Shown here piece by piece: positions 843 to 50,248 of a DNA stretch of 55,570 nucleotides. Within the stretch, counting starts at the first letter, position 1. Every line of letters starts with the position of its first letter. Both the position numbers and the translations under genes were made by a program. The DNA is from a virus. The notes beneath the pieces were generated by a model that was not told the DNA's origin, made no database searches, and saw only the letters and a list, made by a program, of their open reading frames with translations. Where the stretch lies: positions 1 to 55,570 of the IMG/VR virus record IMGVR_UViG_3300024257_000013; one strand, written 5' to 3'.

Positions 843-2492
843 ATGGGATGGCCTTTTAGTGGTAAAACAGTAGTTAGTACTTCTGTACAGACTGTCCCTC
901 TTGTCAACGAAAAACCTAAAAACCGTATAGCAGAAGCTATCCGTTTAGCTTCTTCACGCAACGAAGATTTAACGGATACTATTAAATACCAAACTCTTAC
1001 AGGGTATAAGAGAGATTTAATAAATTGTTACAACTACGCAAAGAGTAGTTATATTTACGGATTACCTACAGCATCTTCTGCTGAAGAATTTATACCTATA
1101 GTGCCTATCAGGTATAACGATAAAAATACTAATGACGATAAAACTTCTGAATTGTACATAACAACAAAAAATTTATTAAGAACTACAAAAATAAATCTAG
1201 ATGATTTTACTGACCAAGTAACAAAAGAGTATAACAGCAAAAATGAATTAGTTAATATTGCTGATCTTGATAAGATCTCAGACATTTTTGTAATATATGG
1301 CATAAACATCTATTCTGATACACAGGAAGAAAAGGAGATACTGTTTAAGCTCTTCAGTAGTTTAGAGTCGATAGCTGGCACTAAAGAAACATTTGATACT
1401 GCACTAGCTGATGAAGTACTGTTTACACCTTCAACACTACTGATTAACGAAGAAACCTTCGATTACGATCTTATATACAATTATGTAACAGTTACTGAAA
1501 TAGAAGGCAAAGTATCAGAACGTGATACGTATACTGTAACTTTCAGTATTAATGGTACACACACGTATGTACCTGACGGTGATTTAGAGGAAGAACTTGA
1601 ATACCTGCTAGACTATGTGACTATCAGGCATCAAACCACTCTATCTACTTATACGGAAATAGTAATTCATGGGTTATATATTTACCACATGGTTAAAACT
1701 GTTTCTGGTGGGAAGATTCACCCCGTTAACCTAGTTACTTTTACAGAAGGCCTGGAACTTACTCCAGAACATAAAAATTTTATAATACCTTTAAGACATT
1801 TAGATATCGTAGATCTTCTTACTTCCGAAGGAGATACTATTATTTCTTCCTCTAAACATTTGCTGATATACGCTTCAGACTCTCAGTATCTTAAATGGTA
1901 CCAGACAGGAGCATTTTTAAGTTTACTGCAGCTTACTCTGAGAGTTATTTCTGTAGTAGCACTGCTTGGAGATCCTTCTGGTTCAACTTCAGAAGTATTG
2001 ATTGAGCTTGGAAAAGCAATAATCAAACAATACGCTTTTGAGGCTATATTAACAGAACTATTTCTCAAGTTTGGCAATAATGATCTAGCAAAAGTTATTT
2101 TGGCTTTTACTGCTATTTACGTTAGTTATAATAGTTTAAGCAAAATGGCTCTTACTAAATTAAGTACTGCAGAAAAACTTCTCAGACTTACTAATTCTGC
2201 CTCCAGCGTTTTAAACACATACACTAAATCTCAGTACTCTGTGCTAGAACAAGAGTATGAGGATTTTAGAAAAGATAAAGAAGCACTAGAAACTGAAATA
2301 GAGGAAGCACAAGATATCTTAAACGCAGATAATAGGCTTAATCCTTCAGCAGCAATTAATGCTTCAACATACGCATATGAAGATCCTAATGACTTCTATA
2401 CCCGTACACTGAATACAGCTCCCGGTCAGCTTGTATTTGACCAACTGCATAATTATGTAGATAATAACTTAAACCTTGACTATATACGGTAA
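843..2492 (+). CDS. Virion structural protein with hydrophobic segments
   Basis: 549 residues. The start (MGWPFSGKTVVSTSVQTV) followed by a YNYAKSSYIYGLP motif resembles a virion protein found beside internal proteins in N4-like and related podoviruses. Two hydrophobic stretches, near residues 355-378 and 415-432, could insert in a membrane, and an acidic coiled coil follows at about 470-495. This would fit a protein that contacts the cell envelope during ejection, but that role is inferred. The stop is 5 bases before the next ATG. Confidence 0.75.
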   Translation: MGWPFSGKTVVSTSVQTVPLVNEKPKNRIAEAIRLASSRNEDLTDTIKYQTLTGYKRDLINCYNYAKSSYIYGLPTASSAEEFIPIVPIRYNDKNTNDDKTSELYITTKNLLRTTKINLDDFTDQVTKEYNSKNELVNIADLDKISDIFVIYGINIYSDTQEEKEILFKLFSSLESIAGTKETFDTALADEVLFTPSTLLINEETFDYDLIYNYVTVTEIEGKVSERDTYTVTFSINGTHTYVPDGDLEEELEYLLDYVTIRHQTTLSTYTEIVIHGLYIYHMVKTVSGGKIHPVNLVTFTEGLELTPEHKNFIIPLRHLDIVDLLTSEGDTIISSSKHLLIYASDSQYLKWYQTGAFLSLLQLTLRVISVVALLGDPSGSTSEVLIELGKAIIKQYAFEAILTELFLKFGNNDLAKVILAFTAIYVSYNSLSKMALTKLSTAEKLLRLTNSASSVLNTYTKSQYSVLEQEYEDFRKDKEALETEIEEAQDILNADNRLNPSAAINASTYAYEDPNDFYTRTLNTAPGQLVFDQLHNYVDNNLNLDYIR

Positions 2493-2497
2493 CCACC

Positions 2498-3052
2498 ATG
2501 GCTAATGAAGCATACCAATACCAATCACCTTTTGCTGCTAATGGGTTAGGATCTCTTGACCAATATGCTGGTTCAAAACCATTTGCCTTTGCACCTTCTA
2601 CAAATGTGCAACCTCAAAATACTGGGTATAAACCTCTTTTCCCTAACTTTAATGCAGCTGATCCAAGCACTTTTACTAACATACCTCAGTACCAAAGCAT
2701 GGGAAATGCTGTTAATTTGCCAACAAACTTGTTAGGTGGGGCTAATAAAGAAAGTTCAGGAATCCTGTCTAAACTACTGGGCAAAGACGGGAAACTAATT
2801 CCTGGTCTAGAAGCCTTTAGTGCTTTAGGAAGTGGAATACTTGGACTGAAGCAGTATGGGTTAGAAGGGGCTGCTTTTAATTTTAGTAGAGGTCTGGCTA
2901 AAACTGATTTATCCAATCGAGCGAATATAGCGAATGCGGCTATTTCAGATAGGGCTAGAGCCAGAGCAGTACAGAGTGGAGCTTCTAGAAGTGACCTAGC
3001 TGATATTGTTAAAAACCAAACAGCTGATCGTAGAGTTAGAGGTACTGTCTAA
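2498..3052 (+). CDS. Small internal virion protein
   Basis: 184 residues. The N-terminal half is low-complexity (N, Q, P, F, Y rich). Around residues 100-125 there is a glycine-rich stretch with the pattern SALGSGILGLKQYGLEGAAFNF, then an Arg/Ala-rich amphipathic helix. This glycine stretch plus helical tail is typical of short internal or ejection proteins in podoviruses. The stop overlaps the next start (TAATG), indicating coupled translation. Exact function unknown. Confidence 0.7.
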   Translation: MANEAYQYQSPFAANGLGSLDQYAGSKPFAFAPSTNVQPQNTGYKPLFPNFNAADPSTFTNIPQYQSMGNAVNLPTNLLGGANKESSGILSKLLGKDGKLIPGLEAFSALGSGILGLKQYGLEGAAFNFSRGLAKTDLSNRANIANAAISDRARARAVQSGASRSDLADIVKNQTADRRVRGTV

Positions 3053-5082
3053 TGGCTTCTTCCATACCTTATGCGCAGACTGGTATATCCAATCTTAAAG
3101 CACCTGATCTGAGCAAAGCTGGAGATCTGTTTAATACAGCCCTAACTAAAGCTACTTCTATGGCAGAAACCGCTAAAGCTAATTTACAGGATGAACAAAA
3201 AGGATTATTTGCTACCGGGCTAAGAGAAGCCGGTAATCTGCAAGACTTGACAAATGTTAATATAGAAGGCTTAAGGCAGGCTGATTTAGACAGTGCTGCA
3301 TTACAGCAAGCTCAAGCACAGTTACAAGAACGCCAATTAGCATTATTAGGTACAGAGCTGCAAGGACAATACGATACTAGATTAGCTGAAAATAAACCCA
3401 TCGTTGAAAATATTCTTGCAAATAATCCTGCTATTGCAAACTTTGCAGGTGTAGATGAAAGTGGAACTATCAACTTTGCTGAAGGCACTACTCCAGAGCA
3501 AGAAGCACAATTCGGTGAACTGTTAAGACAATCTGAATTTGTTCCTGTACAGACAGAGCGTGAGTACACTAAAGGTCTTACACAGCGAGCTAAAACTGAA
3601 TTTAATGCTTCTGATGAACAGGCTAAAAAATTAGCTGCTGACCATACTGCGTACAGAAAAAGTTTAAATACTCTTACTTCAGAAGAAAATGCTCTGTATG
3701 TAGCAGAAGAAGTTAAACTGGACCAGGCATTGGCTCACGAAAGATTAGGTGCTGATAGACAGTTGGCACGGATAGAGAGAGAAACCAAGCATAATCCTAC
3801 TGAAGCACAAGCATTGTTGTCTATGAAAGCATCTACAGTAAAAGATACTGTTGATGAATTAGCTAATATAAGTTCTTGGAGGGACTTCTTTGCTGAAAGT
3901 GGAGAAAAGCTAAAAAGAACTATAGATGGTCTATACAAGAAAGGTGTTAACAATAATACTGTACAACCCTGGATGGTTGATGATGCTTTACGTACACTTA
4001 TCGACACAGCTCCTGATACAGGCAGCAAAGCTATAAACATAGACGATATGATAACGTTAATAGATGGTATAGCAAGAGATTCTGTATTGCAGCAAAACCT
4101 ATTAACAGCTGCTAACGCTAAAAGAGATATTGACCAAAACCTTCTTAACTCAGAACAGAGAACTGTTCAGGATAAAAAGAAAGCATTAGCTAGAATAAAG
4201 AAAGATGCTCTTATTAGAGATACTGCTTTTAATAGAGCAGCTTATAACCGTGTTCTAGATAAAGCTGTTGAGGCACAAAATAATGTTGTTGCTGATCCCG
4301 AAACTACTGGTGGAGCAAAAGCGTTTTCTCTGTTGGATACAGGTAACAAAAAACCTGCTGCAATTACTGCACCAATAACTGTTGTACAGAAATCAAGAAA
4401 AGATAAAATAAAAGCGGCTAATACTGCGGATTCTCCTCTAATTTTTAAAGATGGTGAGATAATAGGTATTGATCCTGACATAAACCAGTTCAATTTAATT
4501 AGTTTAGACCCAGAATTGCTATCCTTTATGTCGGATAAAGATGTAAATAATATAAGCAATGCCAGAGTAAAAACTGAAGTAAAAAGAATTAGGACTTCCT
4601 ATGAATATAGTAAAAATGTTGGTAACGATCTAAAAAAAGTAACAAAAGCTACTACTGACTTTATTGGAGATGTAAAAGACTTCTTGGTAACTCCGGATAA
4701 AGCTTATTCTAAAGCCGTAGAAGAAGCCCGTTTAAGAGGTGATACTACGAAAAATTCTGAAGCAAACAAAACAGGAACAATAGAAAGAAGCAGTTTTGAC
4801 CCTGAATTGAGACCTAAAGAAGAAGAAGAAGTTGTTGATCCTTTAACTCGTGCTGTAAATAAAGCTAGAAGACAGCTAGAAGACAGTAAAATAAGAAATT
4901 TACAAGAAGAATTAAAAAAGACTATAGACAGCAATTTAAAAGGCAAAGAAAAGGTAGACAGACTTAACATACAATTAGAGTTAACAACTCTTTTAGAAAG
5001 TAGAGATATAGCATCTAGAGTAAGTAGTGAGGAATTGCGTAAGCAAATTGATGCTGCAGAAAAACAATTAAAAACTGATTAA
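3052..5082 (+). CDS. Internal (ejection-type) coiled-coil virion protein
   Basis: 676 residues, almost wholly alpha-helical and rich in A, K, E, Q and D, with long coiled-coil stretches at about 80-110, 180-260 and 600-676. Length, composition and position just before the giant multidomain protein resemble T7 gp15-like or N4 internal proteins that leave with the DNA. No catalytic motif was seen. Linked by a 1-base overlap to the gene before it and 4 bases from the next. Confidence 0.65.
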   Translation: MASSIPYAQTGISNLKAPDLSKAGDLFNTALTKATSMAETAKANLQDEQKGLFATGLREAGNLQDLTNVNIEGLRQADLDSAALQQAQAQLQERQLALLGTELQGQYDTRLAENKPIVENILANNPAIANFAGVDESGTINFAEGTTPEQEAQFGELLRQSEFVPVQTEREYTKGLTQRAKTEFNASDEQAKKLAADHTAYRKSLNTLTSEENALYVAEEVKLDQALAHERLGADRQLARIERETKHNPTEAQALLSMKASTVKDTVDELANISSWRDFFAESGEKLKRTIDGLYKKGVNNNTVQPWMVDDALRTLIDTAPDTGSKAINIDDMITLIDGIARDSVLQQNLLTAANAKRDIDQNLLNSEQRTVQDKKKALARIKKDALIRDTAFNRAAYNRVLDKAVEAQNNVVADPETTGGAKAFSLLDTGNKKPAAITAPITVVQKSRKDKIKAANTADSPLIFKDGEIIGIDPDINQFNLISLDPELLSFMSDKDVNNISNARVKTEVKRIRTSYEYSKNVGNDLKKVTKATTDFIGDVKDFLVTPDKAYSKAVEEARLRGDTTKNSEANKTGTIERSSFDPELRPKEEEEVVDPLTRAVNKARRQLEDSKIRNLQEELKKTIDSNLKGKEKVDRLNIQLELTTLLESRDIASRVSSEELRKQIDAAEKQLKTD

Positions 5083-25657: not shown

Positions 25658-27448
25658 CTAAAAAGTATTCAAGATTTTTTGTATTTCTGCTGTTGTTGCG
25701 TTAGGTGACAGTGCTATTTCTTCTGCCCAGTTCCGTCCAATACCACATTCAAGTGTATTAGGGACTTGTTGGCACACAAGAAAATCTTTTTTACCTATTT
25801 CGACTAAATTATCGTTATACCACTTTACTATTTCTGCATTGCTTGAAATATTAGAGTAGATAGAGTCGTAAATGGTGGAGGTAATTTGAATTTCTTCGGT
25901 TAGCTGTTCCTGCTCTATTCGATAATTTAGTTCATTAACAGCTATTAATGTAAGTATACTCCAAAACTGAAAGTTGCTGTTAAAAAGAGTACGAAAAACA
26001 TCATCTACGTTATCACAATAAATCCTAGCTCCTAAGCCCAAATGCAGGTAACCCTGCTTTTGTGCTGTAGGTATAACATAATCATCTAAGAATGCCCTAA
26101 CTTCTGGATAAAGAACATTATGATAATTATCATAAATTTCTTTAGTTATTGTTCCTCCTTTATCTGCATCCGGAAATCCCAAGTAAGCTAATTTGAAGGT
26201 GTTAGGTTTACTTTTTTGACGTATTTCTTTTAGGATTGTATTTTTACCTTCAACCATTTGCTTGAATCTTCGTACTTTGTCTTTGTAATTTCCCTGCACT
26301 CCGATAACTTTTTCTATTTCTTCTGGATAGTAGCCAAGTGCGTTGTAACAATGCGCATCTAGAGTTTTATCTTTTTGTATTGCTAATTTCCCTTCATCTA
26401 ATGTTATATTTGCTAATACAACATCTTCTAAAGAGCTATAGTCTGCTTGAATTACAAGCATACCTTTTGGAGCAATAAAGCACTTTTTCAAAGGTTTTGC
26501 GTATATGGATTTGGTTGAGGGCATATTCAAAAGATTTGGTGAATTGCTCGTATTTCTCCAAGTCTTAGCTCCACCTAAACGAATATTGCCGTGGAGTACG
26601 CCATCAATGGTGTAAGAGTCGAATGCCTTTATAAAATTGTTCTTAATAATCCCACTAAAGGAGTGATCGATAAGTGCATCCAGTAACAGCAGTAGATCTT
26701 TACCTGTCGAATTTTTTTGCAACTCTTCTAATTGATCTCTTCCCCAGGAATCATCACCTGTTGTTTTGCTGGTAGCAGTAGACTCTAGACCAAGCATGCT
26801 GAACAGTTCCTGTTTCTGTTTAGTGCTTCCAGGGTTGAATGCGTTCACCTTAACTTTTGTGTTAGCATTTTCGTATCGTGGCCTGTTCCACAGTTCCACC
26901 TTATATTCCGCCAGTGCAACCATCCCTGCTTTCACATATTTATTGGTAACTGAAACATTCTTATGAATTAGCATGTCTACCAGGTGATCATTAGCCCATA
27001 CATTGTGCTTCTTTAATTCGGCTACAGACCACTTCTCTTTACAATACTCTTTAGCCCCAGTAGATTCTAGATACGTGTTCATTACCCATGTGCGGTGTAC
27101 CATGTCAGAAGCCACATACTCTTTCAGATAGTGATCTGATGTTCTTACTGCTTGGGTAGCCTTCTCTGCATGAGCTTTCTGAGCTGCAGGCAGCCTATGT
27201 TTTTGATACCGCATTACGATCTTGTTTGCTTTTAAAGCTACGGAGACTTTTTCCAAAACATCATCAATAACTTTACGCAATTCATCGACTGCTTTTTCAT
27301 CAATATGCAGTCCAGCATCCATTATTTTGATCATATCTGGAATGAAATGCTTTAAAAAGTTTTCATAAAAGAAATCAGGTTGTTCTTCAGAAGGATCATA
27401 GTCAGCCGGATAAGGAAACGGCAGTAGTTCGTAAGGTCTTTTAGACAT
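25658..27448 (-). CDS. DNA polymerase, family A, polymerase domain
   Basis: 596 residues. Motif A is VIQADYSSLEDVV with Asp336; motif B is RQKSKPNTFKLAYLGFP; motif C is TIYDSIY with Asp528, where most family A enzymes have HDE, so the second carboxylate is replaced by Ser. It lacks a proofreading domain; that domain is the separate gene at 28472-29152. N4 gp39 is one protein holding both, so here the replicative polymerase is split, with a small gene and an HNH endonuclease between the halves. Replicates the phage genome. Confidence 0.9.
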   Translation of the reverse strand: MSKRPYELLPFPYPADYDPSEEQPDFFYENFLKHFIPDMIKIMDAGLHIDEKAVDELRKVIDDVLEKVSVALKANKIVMRYQKHRLPAAQKAHAEKATQAVRTSDHYLKEYVASDMVHRTWVMNTYLESTGAKEYCKEKWSVAELKKHNVWANDHLVDMLIHKNVSVTNKYVKAGMVALAEYKVELWNRPRYENANTKVKVNAFNPGSTKQKQELFSMLGLESTATSKTTGDDSWGRDQLEELQKNSTGKDLLLLLDALIDHSFSGIIKNNFIKAFDSYTIDGVLHGNIRLGGAKTWRNTSNSPNLLNMPSTKSIYAKPLKKCFIAPKGMLVIQADYSSLEDVVLANITLDEGKLAIQKDKTLDAHCYNALGYYPEEIEKVIGVQGNYKDKVRRFKQMVEGKNTILKEIRQKSKPNTFKLAYLGFPDADKGGTITKEIYDNYHNVLYPEVRAFLDDYVIPTAQKQGYLHLGLGARIYCDNVDDVFRTLFNSNFQFWSILTLIAVNELNYRIEQEQLTEEIQITSTIYDSIYSNISSNAEIVKWYNDNLVEIGKKDFLVCQQVPNTLECGIGRNWAEEIALSPNATTAEIQKILNTF

Positions 27449-27764
27449 TCTCTTTAACCCATTTTCTTGCTAATTCCAGTGTATCAAGAGGTCCAGTTAC
27501 ATTTTCAATCGTGGCTGACAATATCAGTTTTACGGAATATATTTCGGAACCCATAAAGTAATCTACTGTTATGAAGTACCCTTGTTTTAATACACCGGTA
27601 AGGTAATTAGTACTGAAAAAGCTATCAGCACCAAACCAATTATCAATATACTGTTGTGGAAATTTGTCAGATAGGCTATTTATGATAGTAGTCTTATTAC
27701 TCATAGAATTTTCTTCACAATGAGCAAATTTTGAGTCTACTAATTGTAATGGTACGTTAGGCAT
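27441..27764 (-). CDS. Small protein between endonuclease and polymerase
   Basis: 107 residues from the ATG at 27764, which has GAGGAG 7 bases before it and overlaps the end of the HNH gene. The C-terminus overlaps the polymerase start by 8 bases. A second good candidate start (MSNKTTIINSLSDKF) lies at 27704. It may be a genuine small protein or the linker of a formerly continuous exonuclease-polymerase; no family recognised. Confidence 0.6.
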   Translation of the reverse strand: MPNVPLQLVDSKFAHCEENSMSNKTTIINSLSDKFPQQYIDNWFGADSFFSTNYLTGVLKQGYFITVDYFMGSEIYSVKLILSATIENVTGPLDTLELARKWVKENV

Positions 27765-28497
27765 CACTAAACTCCTCTATATGTTGTTCTAAATCTTTAT
27801 CACTAAAGTTTCGTTTACTGCTTGAGCCTGTAGCAATAATAAATTCTTCTCTTCTTATTGCAGCTATTAAAGCAGTTTTAAAATACCCACTGAATATTTT
27901 CTTTTTCTTTATAGAGATTTGCGCTACCCAAGAATTTTTTAAGTGTCTTATTCTTTTAGGTCTACTCACTCCTATATACCCAGAGGTATTTGTAGTCAGT
28001 AGTAATTTACCTGTATTAGACTCAGTACGTTTTGCAGTATTATTAGTTGTATGGGGTAGGTTGTTATCACGTACATAGGTATCATAAGCTTGAGCAGCTT
28101 CTTTTATACAGTCGTAGTACCCTACTTTTATTACCTTTGATTTTACGCTTATTGACACCTCCCATTTACTGTATTTCTTATTCCAGCTAACTCCTCTATA
28201 TCCGGATTTATTATGGGAATAAAGAATTCTAGTATTTGAAGATTGAACTATTTGGTTTGTCCATCTGCAGTTATCTGGGCAGTAGTTATCATTATTATTT
28301 TTTCTATCTATAGAAGAATTTTCGTTATAATTATTAGATAAAGCCCAAGATTTAAAGGCTAAATAAGAATTTTTCCATTCTGTACAAACTTCAATATTTT
28401 TATAAGTTTTTTCGTATTGTTTTGCTCTACACCTATTTTTCATGCCTTTCCAAATATTATGAAGTCTAGTATCAGTATCCCCGTGAATTTCTCTCAT
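27757..28497 (-). CDS. HNH homing endonuclease with AP2 DNA-binding domains
   Basis: 246 residues. N-terminal HNH nuclease with the IDRKNNNDNYCPDNCRWTN motif, then two AP2-like repeats: SGYRGVSWNKKYSKWEVSIS (about 98-140) and SGYIGVSRPKRIRHLKNSW (about 178-215). This is a classic free-standing phage homing endonuclease. It lies between the exonuclease and polymerase genes, overlapping the exonuclease stop by 26 bases. It is selfish DNA spread by cutting endonuclease-free alleles. A decayed relative lies near 38117-38340. Confidence 0.88.
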   Translation of the reverse strand: MREIHGDTDTRLHNIWKGMKNRCRAKQYEKTYKNIEVCTEWKNSYLAFKSWALSNNYNENSSIDRKNNNDNYCPDNCRWTNQIVQSSNTRILYSHNKSGYRGVSWNKKYSKWEVSISVKSKVIKVGYYDCIKEAAQAYDTYVRDNNLPHTTNNTAKRTESNTGKLLLTTNTSGYIGVSRPKRIRHLKNSWVAQISIKKKKIFSGYFKTALIAAIRREEFIIATGSSSKRNFSDKDLEQHIEEFSDA

Positions 28498-29152
28498 TTT
28501 TATTGATGTGCTCTTCTAATTGTTCGTAAAGTAGTATTGTAGCACATCCATCAGTAGCTGCATACATAAGAAACTTAGGATCTCTTAAATTTTTAGGTTC
28601 GTATGTGTCAAATAAAGACCATGCAGGCAGGTAGTGATCTCCAACAAGTTCTTTCAGTCCAACCTTTGCTTTCCATATATCAACATGGTTAACAAAAGTT
28701 TTAGCTAACAATTGAGTATCTTCATAATTCTTCGGAAATTTCTTTACCCGGTGATACATCAGTTTAAGATCAAACAAACTGTTGTGGACAATAATTAACC
28801 CTTCATATTTGGCTAACCAGTTCCATATAATCATTTCTACTGCCATGTTTTCGGCAATAAGGACAACACTCTCGCAGTCACTGATACCAAATATAAAATG
28901 TGTAACAGTTACCAGCGAAGGAAAACTTAAACCTGAACTATTAACTACCTGCAGTGATAACTTTTTATTTTTTAAACTGATTTTAGGATTTTTCAGTAAA
29001 AGTTTAGCTTCTTTACGTTCTTCTTTGGAGTACACACTACGAGTTTCTGTGTCAAAACTGAGCATAATGTGCTCTTCAAGTTGTGCTAATTTTTGACGAA
29101 TAAACCAGGGTGTCGAATATACTTCGTAGGATACTTCTATAAAATCATTCAT
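28472..29152 (-). CDS. 3'-5' exonuclease (proofreading) subunit of DNA polymerase
   Basis: 226 residues. DnaQ-like motifs: ExoI SFDTET, ExoII HNSLFDLKLM, ExoIII YAATDGCATILLYEQ. Matches the exonuclease half of family A polymerases such as N4 gp39. Split from its polymerase by the HNH-AP2 gene. Its last residues (about KNERNSRGY) overlap the HNH start and may differ from the ancestral end. Presumably works with the polymerase in trans. Confidence 0.85.
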   Translation of the reverse strand: MNDFIEVSYEVYSTPWFIRQKLAQLEEHIMLSFDTETRSVYSKEERKEAKLLLKNPKISLKNKKLSLQVVNSSGLSFPSLVTVTHFIFGISDCESVVLIAENMAVEMIIWNWLAKYEGLIIVHNSLFDLKLMYHRVKKFPKNYEDTQLLAKTFVNHVDIWKAKVGLKELVGDHYLPAWSLFDTYEPKNLRDPKFLMYAATDGCATILLYEQLEEHINKNERNSRGY

Positions 29153-29994: not shown

Positions 29995-30831
29995 TTAACA
30001 AGCACTAGCCAACTTGTGCAATTCATCAGCGGCAAGTTGAAAACCGGCGGCATGTTTATGTCCACCACCACCAAATAAAACGGCAATTTTAGACACGTCC
30101 TGTCCACCTTCTTCTGAACGCAAACTAAAGGTCCTGCCTTCTGCTGTATCCCAGTAACATGCCGCAAACGGTTCTTTCTCAGCCATAATATGACCCGCAT
30201 CACTACTGAAAAAATAAGGAGCATTTAAAGTGGGTACGTCAAATCCAGCTATAGTGCTTCTCGTTGCAGCCACTTTTATCAGTTCTTTAATATCCTTAAA
30301 GTGCTTTCTTTCAATGGCTTCACCAGCACCGATAAACGACCAGTATTTATAATCATCAGCACATAGGTCATCAACCATATCCCAATTTTCAAACGTGTAT
30401 TCCATACTGAGTAAATTCGCCTGAAAAGCGCGTGTTTGCTCCATTGAAAACCGCCATAAATCACGATCCTGAACATGTTTAATTAAAAATGGTGGTTTAG
30501 TATCTGGGTGAAAATATTCCCATGCCATCATTGCTCCACTTCTATCCATATCGAAGTGGATAGTAACATTTTCTGGCAAATCAACCAGGTCGGCTTCAGC
30601 ACTTTTATGGTGATCCAGAATTAATACGGTTTTAGCCTGTTTTGCTATCTCTAGTAACACTGGGCGCTTATAGCTAAAATCAACCATAATTACATCACGA
30701 CCAGTACAAGCAGGTGGTTCTTGACCGTAAATGCCTGGGTGAAATTCTGTTCCAGGGTGCTTTTTACGCACTGCCCAAGCAGCGGTAAACCCATCAGCAC
30801 AGTTACCATGATAAATACAAAGTTTTTTCAT
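29995..30831 (-). CDS. DHH-family phosphoesterase (oligoribonuclease-like)
   Basis: 278 residues from the ATG MKKLCIYHG at 30831. DHH motifs: HGNCADGFTAAW, VDFSYKRP, LDHHKSAEAD, then a DHHA1 C-terminal motif GGGGHKHAAGF. Members cleave short RNA or DNA oligonucleotides (NrnA/NrnB) or cyclic dinucleotides. In a phage this could recycle nanoRNA or degrade a nucleotide second messenger; the substrate is not decided by the sequence. An upstream ATG at 30846 is possible. Confidence 0.85.
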   Translation of the reverse strand: MKKLCIYHGNCADGFTAAWAVRKKHPGTEFHPGIYGQEPPACTGRDVIMVDFSYKRPVLLEIAKQAKTVLILDHHKSAEADLVDLPENVTIHFDMDRSGAMMAWEYFHPDTKPPFLIKHVQDRDLWRFSMEQTRAFQANLLSMEYTFENWDMVDDLCADDYKYWSFIGAGEAIERKHFKDIKELIKVAATRSTIAGFDVPTLNAPYFFSSDAGHIMAEKEPFAACYWDTAEGRTFSLRSEEGGQDVSKIAVLFGGGGHKHAAGFQLAADELHKLASAC

Positions 30832-30848
30832 TTTATGTTTCTCCAAAT

Positions 30849-30942
30849 CGGCTCTTATAACAAGCCATTCTACCGGAGCGTTTCACGCTCCTCGTTTATG
30901 CCATTAGGCCAGTGCTGCGCCCGGTAAATTCAATCGTTAGAA
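30849..30942 (-). repeat. attC-like imperfect inverted repeat
   Basis: On the - strand, after the radical SAM gene, the order is CTAACGATTGAATTTACCGG, a spacer with a GGAGCGT-GAA-ACGCTCC hairpin, then CCGGTAGAATGGCTTGTTAT. The outer 20-mers pair at about 13 of 20 positions with mismatches, and the ends are of TAAC / GTTA type. This matches the architecture of an integron attC site (R"-L"...L'-R'), though the consensus boxes are imperfect. Confidence 0.45.
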
Positions 30943-30947
30943 AGACT

Positions 30948-31949
30948 TTATAGTCCTTGCTTAATTTTGAGTTTCCCACCACCTAGAATCGCATTACCGC
31001 AAGTGATCAGGCTATCTTCTTCGTCTTGCGATGGTATAAATACAAGGGTATCGAACCCGGCCCCCTTACAGCTCTCCTCCGGCTCTGTATAAGGGGTGTA
31101 AGTTTGGTAACCGTCTACTGTCTGTATGCCATTCTCCATACAGGCTGAGTTGTTATGTATGGGCGTTATTTTCACCATCCATTTTTCAGTGTCAAAAAGC
31201 TCGGCGAGTTTTGCGCCGTCAACTTCATTCCCTGATGCGTAAGCTATGTTCAGGCAATACTTTCTACCGATAGGTTTTTGAATATTTTCGAGATTCTTTG
31301 CAATATCAATAAGGGTGTGACTGCTGCCACCAAACATCTGTTCACGCTGTACCTCTGAGCTGCTGTTGATACTGATCTGTAAACCTGCCTGACCTTTGAA
31401 TAGCTCGTTTTTTATCTTCACCCATTCGTGGATTCGATTAAATGTGTGCTTATAGTCAGGGCACATTGTTGTGAAAACAGGGTGAATAACTTCAATCCTA
31501 ACGCCTGTCTCATCTTGAATTTGACGCTTATGCTCCCCTAGCCACTCAGAAAACCTCAAAACGTCCTGATTGAAAACCGGCTCACCCATTCTAGCAAAGT
31601 GGATATTTAGCCTGTCAGTGTATTTCACACTATCATAGGCATTTATCCCCGCGTAAAACTGAGCCTTTAAGTCGCTGAAGCTGACGTTCCCTGAGAACTT
31701 GATATTTGGCACATCACAAAAAGTACATTTCATTACGCACCCGTACTGAGTAGAGAGAGTTATTACCCACTTCTCCTGTAGCGGCATTATCGGCCCATTT
31801 TCTACACCATTAAGTGGGCGCGTATACCCAAGGAAATCAGCCTTTATGTTTTTATGTTTCCCGTAGTCGCCTATTGAAAGCGTCTCTAGTTTGCCGTTTG
31901 AATAGTCATCAACAATCAAGCATCCTGTCGGTAATAGAATTTTGCTCAT
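30948..31949 (-). CDS. RlmN/Cfr-like radical SAM methyltransferase
   Basis: 333 residues. Radical SAM cluster motif YGCVMKCTFC with Cys71, Cys75, Cys78, preceded by TLSTQYG as in RlmN (SSQVG). Further RlmN-like marks: FARMGEPVFN, SINSSSEVQREQMF, and a C-terminal Cys317 in LITCGNAIL, matching the second methyl-transfer Cys in RlmN. This family methylates adenosine C2 or C8 in 23S rRNA, or tRNA, and Cfr gives ribosome drug resistance. Target here is unknown. Codon and base use look more GC-rich than the neighbours, suggesting transfer. Confidence 0.82.
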   Translation of the reverse strand: MSKILLPTGCLIVDDYSNGKLETLSIGDYGKHKNIKADFLGYTRPLNGVENGPIMPLQEKWVITLSTQYGCVMKCTFCDVPNIKFSGNVSFSDLKAQFYAGINAYDSVKYTDRLNIHFARMGEPVFNQDVLRFSEWLGEHKRQIQDETGVRIEVIHPVFTTMCPDYKHTFNRIHEWVKIKNELFKGQAGLQISINSSSEVQREQMFGGSSHTLIDIAKNLENIQKPIGRKYCLNIAYASGNEVDGAKLAELFDTEKWMVKITPIHNNSACMENGIQTVDGYQTYTPYTEPEESCKGAGFDTLVFIPSQDEEDSLITCGNAILGGGKLKIKQGL

Positions 31950-32047
31950 TTCATTTCACCAAATAAAAAGCGCCTAACAAATCGATCCAGCCGACCGGCT
32001 AGGACAGCACTTTTTTCACTTTCAATGCTTTCGGTTTCTACTTTCAT
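31946..32047 (-). CDS. Possible 33-residue leader before radical SAM gene
   Basis: ATG at 32047 opens MKVETESIESEKSAVLAGRL..., ending in FGEMK with its TGA overlapping the radical SAM ATG (ATGAAATGAGC). Such overlap suggests coupling. The frame also contains GTTAGGC (31972-31978), which resembles an attC R box; both readings cannot be fully separated. Confidence 0.35.
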   Translation of the reverse strand: MKVETESIESEKSAVLAGRLDRFVRRFLFGEMK

Positions 32048-32101
32048 ACTCTCAATACCTCTTTTATTAATACGCCGTCTGCTGTTTAAGGGGTTATGAC
32101 G

Positions 32102-32314
32102 CTATAAGCTATCAATAATTTGCATCAACTTAAATCCGTCTTCGGCGGATTTGCACCAGACTGGAATATCAATATTTCCAAGTCTATGAGTGCAGCATCT
32201 TCCATCAGCAGATACATAAAAAGTCGGAATATTATCTCTAATCAATTGCGACTCTCGAATAGCTTTAAAAAGTGCTGGCTCTTTCTGCTGTACTATTGTG
32301 TTTAAATCACTCAT
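32102..32314 (-). CDS. Hypothetical protein
   Basis: 70 residues (MSDLNTIVQQKEPALFK...). Short helical N-terminus, then a beta-like part with VSADGRCCTHRLGNIDIP. Start overlaps the stop of the gene before it by 4 bases. No family recognised. Confidence 0.6.
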   Translation of the reverse strand: MSDLNTIVQQKEPALFKAIRESQLIRDNIPTFYVSADGRCCTHRLGNIDIPVWCKSAEDGFKLMQIIDSL

Positions 32315-32660: not shown

Positions 32661-33077
32661 TTATGGTTCCAATAGACCATCTAAGTCTGAATTAAAAAAT
32701 GTTCCACTGATATTCTCATTTATGAAATCAGGATCAAATAAAGCATCATGGTGCATCAATAAGGCCACTTCCAGGTAGGTAGCAGCTTTCTTAGTGCTGC
32801 ATTGATATAAAATCTCTTTAGAGACTGCCTTCAGGCCCTGTGTAAGCTCGCTAGAGCCTTCATACTTGGCAAAGGGCAAATCCACCCATTCTTTACGAAC
32901 GTAGTTCTTACGCTTAGACAGCTGCTTCTTTGTCGGTTTTAGTCGCCTTATAGCTCGAACACTTTTTTTACCGATATACATACGCCCACAGGCATAAGTG
33001 ATCAGGTACACAAAATCAGTACAACCGGTAAGTAAATCGGCATGAGAATCTACTGGGGTACCATTGTAAATCCACAT
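32661..33077 (-). CDS. GIY-YIG-like phage nuclease
   Basis: 138 residues. VYLITYACGRMYIGKKSV fits the GIY...YIG core, followed by a Lys-rich stretch, KYEGSSELTQGLK and YLEVALLMHHDALF. This layout matches a family of small phage GIY-YIG-fold putative nucleases. The first motif is VYLI rather than GIY, so activity is uncertain. Could be a domesticated homing nuclease. Confidence 0.65.
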   Translation of the reverse strand: MWIYNGTPVDSHADLLTGCTDFVYLITYACGRMYIGKKSVRAIRRLKPTKKQLSKRKNYVRKEWVDLPFAKYEGSSELTQGLKAVSKEILYQCSTKKAATYLEVALLMHHDALFDPDFINENISGTFFNSDLDGLLEP

Positions 33078-48019: not shown

Positions 48020-49042
48020 TTAGCTTAGTGCATATGAACTGTTCAGGATGTCTTCACTTAAGTCTGAGCTGTATTTATTAATTACAGCTTCTTGACCTGA
48101 AATATCAAATAATACATTTTTGAGAATATCCATATCAGCAAGTTCTGCCATAACTTCTCTGTATATTTTGACTAATGCTCCTGCATTACAAGGATGTACT
48201 CCATAAGAATCGTGAATAGTAGTAATATCAAAGTCACACCTAAGTACAACTTCTTCCAGTACTTCGGAATCTAACCAATGACATATGTTAGCTGGTAAAC
48301 TTGCATCATTACTACGAGCCATACACACCTCAAAACGTTGAGTAAACGTACTATGATCAAGTTCATCTACTTCAATTCTTGCATCAATAAAGTCTTTAAC
48401 ATTGTATACCACAGTATTTCTATCTAACCCTAACCAGATATACTGAGAACTGAGAGGTTCTACATAGCTATTGATAACTTCTTTAGCTACTTCAGCACCA
48501 GGAGTAATTTCTGATAATACGTTATAAAAAACTTTTAATTGAGTATCGTTAAATATCCTTTTAGGCACAGCTTTAGAATTATAATTGTGAGTCATAATTG
48601 CATCTTTAACATGTATTCGTTTTAATCCTTCACCTGTTTTAACTAATTTAATACGCAATTGAGGAGATAATTGCTTATTCATTAGCTTTACAGTATTAGT
48701 GTAAAGATCAGGTCTTTTACCAGTATTAATTAAACCACACTGCTTAGCAGTCTCTTTACAACCACTTAAGATAGCCATCATTTGATGTCCACTATTTACA
48801 CTGTCTAAATGCATGATGTGGCCTGTAGGTTTACCGTTTAAGGTGTCTCTATAGGCTATTAATGCTTTACGGTATAGTAATGGTTCATCTGCATATCTAA
48901 TGATTTTCCATAGTTGATCTAATGTCCTTTCATTAACCCATGTTAACCTTTTATCCCAGGTTAATTTATCTTTACCATATGTATTGGCAATATCAATCTT
49001 AAGCCAATCAAGAGGAGTAAATTTATCAGTAATATTACACAT
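48020..49042 (-). CDS. N4-like RNA polymerase subunit RNAP2 (C-terminal part)
   Basis: 340 residues. T7-type motif A HLDSVNSGHQMMA with Asp80, motif B KRIHVKDAIMTHNYNSK with Arg142, Lys146 and Tyr154 at T7-like spacing, motif C TIHDSYGVHP with Asp278. N4 RNAPII is made of two proteins, gp15 and gp16, which together equal one T7-like polymerase and transcribe middle genes. This is the catalytic C-terminal subunit. It acts with RNAP1 at 49358-50248. Confidence 0.92.
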   Translation of the reverse strand: MCNITDKFTPLDWLKIDIANTYGKDKLTWDKRLTWVNERTLDQLWKIIRYADEPLLYRKALIAYRDTLNGKPTGHIMHLDSVNSGHQMMAILSGCKETAKQCGLINTGKRPDLYTNTVKLMNKQLSPQLRIKLVKTGEGLKRIHVKDAIMTHNYNSKAVPKRIFNDTQLKVFYNVLSEITPGAEVAKEVINSYVEPLSSQYIWLGLDRNTVVYNVKDFIDARIEVDELDHSTFTQRFEVCMARSNDASLPANICHWLDSEVLEEVVLRCDFDITTIHDSYGVHPCNAGALVKIYREVMAELADMDILKNVLFDISGQEAVINKYSSDLSEDILNSSYALS

Positions 49043-49076
49043 ATTGTTTTTCCTTATTTGTTTCTCTTTATTATTA

Positions 49077-49094
49077 GCCCTCCGTTAAGAGGGC
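49077..49094 (-). promoter_or_regulatory. Intergenic hairpin before RNAP2
   Basis: GCCCTC-6 bases-GAGGGC perfect 6-bp hairpin between the 81-residue gene and RNAP2; no T-run on the - strand, so more probably an RNA stability or processing element than a terminator. Confidence 0.4.
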
Positions 49095-49101
49095 AAACAA
49101 A

Positions 49102-49347
49102 TTACGCCCAGTACATAGCCTTCGAGAGCTTAAAGAACTCTTCGGGTGTAACAATGCTACCGTCGACGGATACATCGATTGCTATGTTGGCAGTGTATAT
49201 GCCGACATAGTAATGTACCTTCACTCGCATATCTTTGAAAACACCGATATAGAATCTGCTGGTCTTGATTTGGATAAAGTCCTTGATAGGGGCTTTACGC
49301 ACAATTGCTAAAAGAGATAAAAGTAGTAAACGTTGTTCATTATTCAT
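49102..49347 (-). CDS. Small protein between RNAP1 and RNAP2
   Basis: 81 residues (MNNEQRLLLLSLLAIVRKAP...). Hydrophobic helix at the start, then beta-rich IQIKTSRFYIGVFKDMRVKV. Lies exactly between the two polymerase subunit genes and has a somewhat different base use. No family; could be an accessory to RNAP or an insertion. Confidence 0.6.
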   Translation of the reverse strand: MNNEQRLLLLSLLAIVRKAPIKDFIQIKTSRFYIGVFKDMRVKVHYYVGIYTANIAIDVSVDGSIVTPEEFFKLSKAMYWA

Positions 49348-49357
49348 GTTATTTCTC

Positions 49358-50248
49358 CTAATCTGTTATTAGTTGTTTATCGCTAAATTCAAGTAAAGAA
49401 CGTTTATATTTTGTACCTTGTAAATTTACATGATAACCAAGACTATAAATTCTTCCTCTAAAGTCTTTTTTATGTACAAAATAGAACTTGTTACCAGCAT
49501 TAATGAGCTTATTGCAAGTGTCTCTAGACTGTTTAACATGCAAATAAAACTGTTTAAGAGCTTTTTCCTTTAATGGTTTGGTAGGCAGTTCTTCTTGCTC
49601 AAGCATTTCTTCATTAATGCTGAAGCTAACTTGTTGTAACTGGTTAATGGCACAAGTATCTATCCAGTAATCATGTTGATTTAATCTGCCAAGTATTACT
49701 GAATCAGTAGCCGTTAGATATCCACCACGGTAACTGGTACTATCCCAATCTCTTGGGATGCATAACATTGGAGGTAAGAAAGAAGTTCTTTCAATAAACT
49801 CTAGTGCAGTAGTACTTAACGTATAATGACTTTCAATAGCTAATGTATCAGTATGATTTGTAGTAGTTGCTCTATGATGTAGAGAATACAAACCAACATT
49901 ACTGCAGACAGCTATCAATTCGCTTGCAGTTTTAAGTCCTTCTAACTGATCATCAAAATCCAGATAATTACTCAATAAGGCCACTGCTTGCTGTATTGGC
50001 ACAATACCTTCTAAAGGTAAAATGACAATATGCATTTCAATAGCTAAATCCAGGGTATTAAAAGGACTTAGTTGCTGAATACGAGTATTTTTGCTGTCGT
50101 AATATATCTTTGCTCTGTACTCTGCAATTGCTTCAGCCATAGGCCAAAGTAGACTATCACTACCACAATCTATATCTTTTAAGATAACGGCATGTATATT
50201 CTTTCTGCTGTACATTTCTTCAACGATTTCTTGTTCAATCTTCATCAT
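49358..50248 (-). CDS. N4-like RNA polymerase subunit RNAP1 (N-terminal part)
   Basis: 296 residues. The C-terminal end has KKDFRGRIYSLGYHVNLQG, matching the DWRGR promoter/template motif of T7 RNAP (TxxGR family), with DFRGR at about 262-266. The rest corresponds to the region before motif A. As in N4 gp15, this subunit needs RNAP2 to be active. Starts at ATG 50248 (an ATG follows at 50245). A terminator separates it from the early gene upstream. Confidence 0.88.
   Translation of the reverse strand: MMKIEQEIVEEMYSRKNIHAVILKDIDCGSDSLLWPMAEAIAEYRAKIYYDSKNTRIQQLSPFNTLDLAIEMHIVILPLEGIVPIQQAVALLSNYLDFDDQLEGLKTASELIAVCSNVGLYSLHHRATTTNHTDTLAIESHYTLSTTALEFIERTSFLPPMLCIPRDWDSTSYRGGYLTATDSVILGRLNQHDYWIDTCAINQLQQVSFSINEEMLEQEELPTKPLKEKALKQFYLHVKQSRDTCNKLINAGNKFYFVHKKDFRGRIYSLGYHVNLQGTKYKRSLLEFSDKQLITD

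Follow-up and report, generated by a model that had tools for sequence, protein, structure and literature searches.

A radical SAM gene of an N4-like phage with integron-type borders and a probable link to NAD metabolism

The described systems closest to the radical S-adenosylmethionine (SAM) gene considered here, rSAM, are the class A radical SAM methylases RlmN and Cfr, the integron attC sites carried by phages, and the phage genes that supply nicotinamide adenine dinucleotide (NAD). The gene lies on a 55.6-kb virus record that looks N4-like (IMGVR_UViG_3300024257_000013, positions 1 to 55,570; hereafter the window). With RlmN and Cfr its product shares the core fold, the CxxxCxxC cluster, an MGEPxxN-type motif and a C-terminal Cys-Gly loop, but it differs in lacking the N-terminal RNA-binding domain and an equivalent of C118/C105, in scoring far below the family cut-offs, and in the NAD-salvage neighbourhoods of its family. 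Phage attC sites are known as such, and some recombine (PMC9892861). In phage-borne attC clusters without an integrase (CALINs; Qi et al. 2023, PMC9892861), as here, attC-type sites bound cargo in phages devoid of an integron integrase; DNA methyltransferases are the cargo highlighted there, whereas the window sites look decayed, recombination is not shown for them, and they enclose a radical SAM enzyme. Phage NAD supply (NARP1; NAMPT/NMNAT-type salvage) likewise ties phage genes to NAD, and some rSAM family members lie beside nadV-like, pncB, nadE or nicotinamide mononucleotide (NMN) adenylyltransferase genes; in contrast, the papers checked on that subject mention no radical SAM enzyme, and the window rSAM has no recognised NAD gene alongside.

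The rSAM protein is a full-length member (E 1e-102) of phrog_24834, a phage family without an assigned function, which is connected here with integron cassettes and with NAD salvage. We favour a reading in which rSAM is probably a cassette-borne, NAD-linked radical SAM enzyme with the RlmN fold in an N4-like phage.

Proposed cassette borders and related arrays

The published attC forward primer HS286 (TCSGCTKGARCGAMTTGTTAGVC) describes the right end of attC sites (PMC2927473). On the minus strand, searched over the full window, its best two matches lie at 31972-31994 (21/23) and 30855-30877 (17/23), which are the two borders of rSAM. None of 200 random windows reached 21/23, while 17/23 arose about once per window, both strands together.

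30948..31949, minus strand: radical SAM gene (rSAM), 333 aa, RlmN core fold, phrog_24834
31972..31994, minus strand: 5' cassette border, attC right end (L'-R'), TCGGCTGGATCGATTTGTTAGGC; R' GTTAGGC at 31978-31972; 21/23 to HS286
30855..30942, minus strand: attC2, 3' attC-type site; R'' TTCTAAC at 30942-30936, R' GTTATAA at 30861-30855; 17/23 to HS286

The 5' match ends 22 nt upstream of the rSAM start codon and includes the R' core GTTRRRY, present as GTTAGGC at the cassette edge. This better-matching end (31972-31994) was missed by the original prediction, which had been made from the sequence alone, gave no strand, and proposed a captured cassette on account of a 90-bp imperfect inverted repeat of attC architecture on the 3' side. 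That repeat is real. It spans 88 bp, begins 5 nt past the rSAM stop codon, and reads TTCTAAC-(6)-ATTTACCGGG ... CCGGTAGAAT-(5)-GTTATAA on the rSAM strand, with 9/9 pairs between its L boxes plus one extra (extrahelical) G in L', and with R boxes that agree with the consensus at 6/7 and 5/7 positions. Among 200 Markov-random windows, none had the full geometry with the extra G, whereas chance alone often gives looser attC-like scores, at 0.9 per window under the first scanner threshold with loose R boxes. A further attC-like match, at 31050-31108, lies within coding sequence and was taken as chance.

Homologues were collected from 80 viral and 35 cellular loci, and a family tree was built with FastTree. 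At locus L003 (= L119), where rSAM is 83% identical, seven or more attC-type sites, oriented like the genes, lie between small ORFs behind ssb; several ORF stop codons fall in or just ahead of R'', and rSAM comes after the last site. At L173 (rSAM 47% identical), 25 nt separate a 21/23 attC end from the rSAM start; the same strand carries four ends of this kind, and GCCTAAC overlaps with the stop codon of rSAM. Across 1.2 Mb of rSAM loci, HS286 matches of at least 19/23 were found only beside the window rSAM (with its near-identical copy, L118), in the L119 array and at L173; an attC is absent from most other viral relatives. In the tree, the window protein groups with that of L003 as its sister (support 1.00) and L173 belongs to a distant clade, so that at least two separate cassette associations are needed. 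An orientation of attC2 opposite to rSAM, a worry raised by class 1 aadA attCs with their extra base in L'', was dismissed: in the environmental consensus, and likewise in the L003 array, the extra base is in L', as in the window.

Attachment-site ends on both sides of rSAM, together with homologues in the multi-cassette arrays of two other phages, support the proposed reading of a captured gene cassette. Nor do all relatives have the gene at this site: phages 43-71% related to the window in the flanking genes are without rSAM, the adjoining DHH phosphoesterase gene and their neighbours, which fits capture. The higher GC content claimed for rSAM holds in a modest form, with 43.3% in the gene and 47.7% in the 3' repeat compared with 36.7% in the window, 36.6% in the small ORF on one side and 41.3% in the DHH gene on the other. 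Members of one gene family are thus plain phage genes in some cases and integron cassettes in others, across at least two separate clades, and the family could serve to study where cassettes originate and how phages move them.

Among side observations on these arrays, that of L003 (IMGVR_UViG_3300026519_000012, 911-3973) lies immediately behind ssb, contains small unknown ORFs and has no recognised integron integrase, and that of L173 (IMGVR_UViG_3300025000_000140, 2950-4953), a viral contig, ends in the family member. Exact matches to the HS286 consensus occur in only 9 stretches of the whole viral collection; a 48-kb viral contig (L205, IMGVR_UViG_2834908352_000001) has six within 8 kb.

Predicted fold of the enzyme and NAD-salvage neighbourhoods of the family

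The CxxxCxxC cluster and the C-terminal Cys that had been predicted are both present in the 333-aa ORF, within ...QYGCVMKCTFC... and ...LITCGNAILGG, respectively. An AlphaFold2 model built with 90 family sequences (predicted local distance difference test score 94.8) has RlmN (Z 25, 265 residues aligned) and Cfr (Z 18) as its best structural matches. The label RlmN/Cfr-like is therefore right for the fold; for function it lacks support. Residue 1 of the model aligns to RlmN residue 83, and thus the N-terminal RNA-binding domain is absent. RlmN C118, which is essential and resolves the protein-RNA adduct (PMC9692996), aligns with Thr64, a position occupied by Thr in 87 of 88 relatives, by Ala in the remaining one and by Cys in none. 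Without the domain and with Thr or Ala at this position, a normal RlmN reaction by the rSAM protein is unlikely, and RlmN/Cfr function is not supported. Retained are the 4Fe-4S motif, MGEPxxN and the C-terminal loop Cys that serves as methyl carrier in RlmN; T316-C317-G318-N319, at the position of the methyl-carrying C355 of RlmN, is invariant in the 90 sequences. The protein scores 27.8 bits against TIGR00048, the RlmN family model, whose cut-off is 290, and this weak match is common to all 90 members of the family alignment, each of which has RlmN as its nearest named family.

NAD-salvage genes were counted within 4-6 kb of rSAM and occur at 14 of the 35 cellular loci, 6 of the 80 viral loci and 0 of 51 control phage loci, where several loci are close relatives of each other and the control loci are not matched. 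Neighbours confirmed by Pfam comprise NAPRTase, isochorismatase-type nicotinamidase, NAD synthase, nucleotidyltransferase and NrtR. At L102, the genes pncB-pncA-rSAM-nadE follow one another on the same strand, 6-16 nt apart, and nrtR lies further on; L077 has nrtR-pncA-pncB-rSAM, and L087 has pncA, pncB, rSAM, nadE and an NMN adenylyltransferase-type gene. The viral contigs L127 and L153 carry NAD gene sets similar to the cellular ones, and the viral loci L140, L161, L194 and L195 have nadM- or nadV-like genes. NAD-linked members are scattered over many branches of the tree and come from several bacterial and archaeal lineages. Since cellular relatives so often lie beside NAD-recycling genes, NAD metabolism, and not the ribosome, is probably the site of action. 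If this link is true, NAD metabolism and the contest between phage and host over NAD include a radical SAM family that is widespread and uncharacterised, and which present tools would wrongly call an RNA methylase.

As a separate observation, the phage family member at L122 (IMGVR_UViG_3300013099_000017, 3641-4950) is preceded by a Thg1-like and a possible macro-domain-like protein, each judged from sequence only; the possible macro-domain-like protein had no Pfam match.

Proposed history and competing explanations

In the scenario we favour, an N4-like phage would have acquired an integron gene cassette, presumably by integron recombination, in a variable block flanked by a GIY-YIG gene and the exonuclease part of the DNA polymerase (between 32661 and 28472). 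The cassette would start at G|TTAGGC (31978) and end with the attC at 30942-30855. Its sites would have partly decayed since acquisition, so that it is now probably fixed cargo. The most likely target of the encoded enzyme is a small molecule in NAD metabolism, perhaps a nucleotide with an adenine or nicotinamide group, and its action would help the phage to maintain or protect the NAD pool. Restoration of NAD by phages in the face of NAD-depleting defences is known (PMC12774641) and would be a plausible benefit of an NAD-linked rSAM.

The state of the sites bears on this scenario, and the following features upstream of rSAM enter into it:

31972..32099, minus strand: attC1, possible whole upstream attC (128 bp); R'' TCATAAC at 32099-32093; left half weakly paired
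31946..32047, minus strand: 33-aa ORF, spans attC1 and overlaps the rSAM start
32102..32314, minus strand: 70-aa ORF, stop just ahead of the attC1 R''

Several results weigh against the favoured scenario. The canonical attC hairpin is absent from the minimum-energy folds of both window sites (z -1.25 and +0.44), compared with z -2.9 to -4.7 for three real attCs from L003 and aadA; attC1 does not fold, and the single-strand fold of attC2 is poor. For this reason we call the window sites attC-type and decayed, not functional attCs, and read the window cassette as old. The integron integrase model TIGR02249 had no match in the window or in the L003, L053, L054 and L057 records, which are possibly incomplete, and a search of viral contigs for the empty-site junction gave 0 matches. 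The 33-aa ORF crosses the 5' half-site; a search found no relatives of it, and it may be spurious. A home-made covariance model, trained on loop-trimmed attC ends of L003, failed to recover several of the sites it was trained on and gave tiny hairpins as its top window matches, and was set aside on both counts. On the enzyme side, the NAD link is based on gene neighbourhoods, no recognised NAD gene adjoins rSAM in the window, most viral relatives have none, and the viral loci exceed the controls by little. Separately, the literature, with subscription journals mostly uncovered, yielded nothing on a radical SAM enzyme in NAD salvage, and an Rfam search of the window gave no match to an attC family, a tRNA being the sole match.

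In one rival explanation the attC-like sequences would be due to chance, rSAM being a moron brought in by ordinary phage recombination and the repeat an intergenic hairpin or weak terminator. The frequency of loose attC-like scores, the poor folding of both sites, a terminator-like hairpin within the repeat on the plus strand and the many viral relatives without attC all speak for such an origin. We nevertheless consider it unlikely, as it would have to place a 21/23 end and a 9/9 stem with an extra G, each seen in 0 of 200 random windows, exactly at the two borders of rSAM, in a family with homologues in the arrays of two other phages. If rSAM encoded a divergent RNA methylase acting during infection on 23S rRNA or tRNA, close to the ribosomal or tRNA adenosine methylase first predicted, this would account for the RlmN core fold, the retained CxxxCxxC and C-terminal Cys, and RlmN as the closest named family of every member. 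The missing RNA-binding domain, the replacement of the essential C118 by Thr or Ala in 88/88 relatives, scores far under the cut-off and the NAD-salvage neighbourhoods make it very unlikely, and this claim of the original prediction is not supported. The NAD neighbourhood might instead reflect regulation or coincidence in a few lineages, the substrate of the enzyme being some unrelated small molecule or peptide; an NAD gene within 4-6 kb is indeed missing from about 60% of cellular and from most viral loci. This explanation is doubtful in view of the tight same-strand operons, such as that of L102, and of the several phyla and many branches in which NAD neighbours occur. A more specific proposal is that an RlmN-fold enzyme freed of RNA binding carries out an unrecognised radical SAM step of NAD metabolism, altering NAD or a precursor at its adenine or nicotinamide part, and that phages repeatedly capture it as an integron cassette and so shield or rebuild NAD in the face of NAD-depleting defences; this seems to us improbable.

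The variable block around rSAM

The N4-like character of the window is seen in its N4-like RNA polymerase genes (48020-50248), a single-strand binding protein and a split DNA polymerase; no close DNA relatives were found among isolated phages. Ahead of attC1, the 70-aa ORF is possibly the gene of a preceding cassette. Beyond attC2 from rSAM lies one further gene of the variable block:

29995..30846, minus strand: DHH phosphoesterase gene, phrog_4771

This gene is common in Vibrio, Caulobacter and other phages. The gene at 32661-33077 is a GIY-YIG (SegE-like) gene that PHROGs labels 'NAD synthetase' (phrog_447); its Pfam match suggests that the label is wrong. The DNA polymerase at 25658-29152 consists of two ORFs with an HNH endonuclease gene in between (27757-28497). 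In the near-identical phage L053, there is no HNH gene at the split and identity in the exonuclease part drops to 79%, a pattern in keeping with homing with co-conversion.
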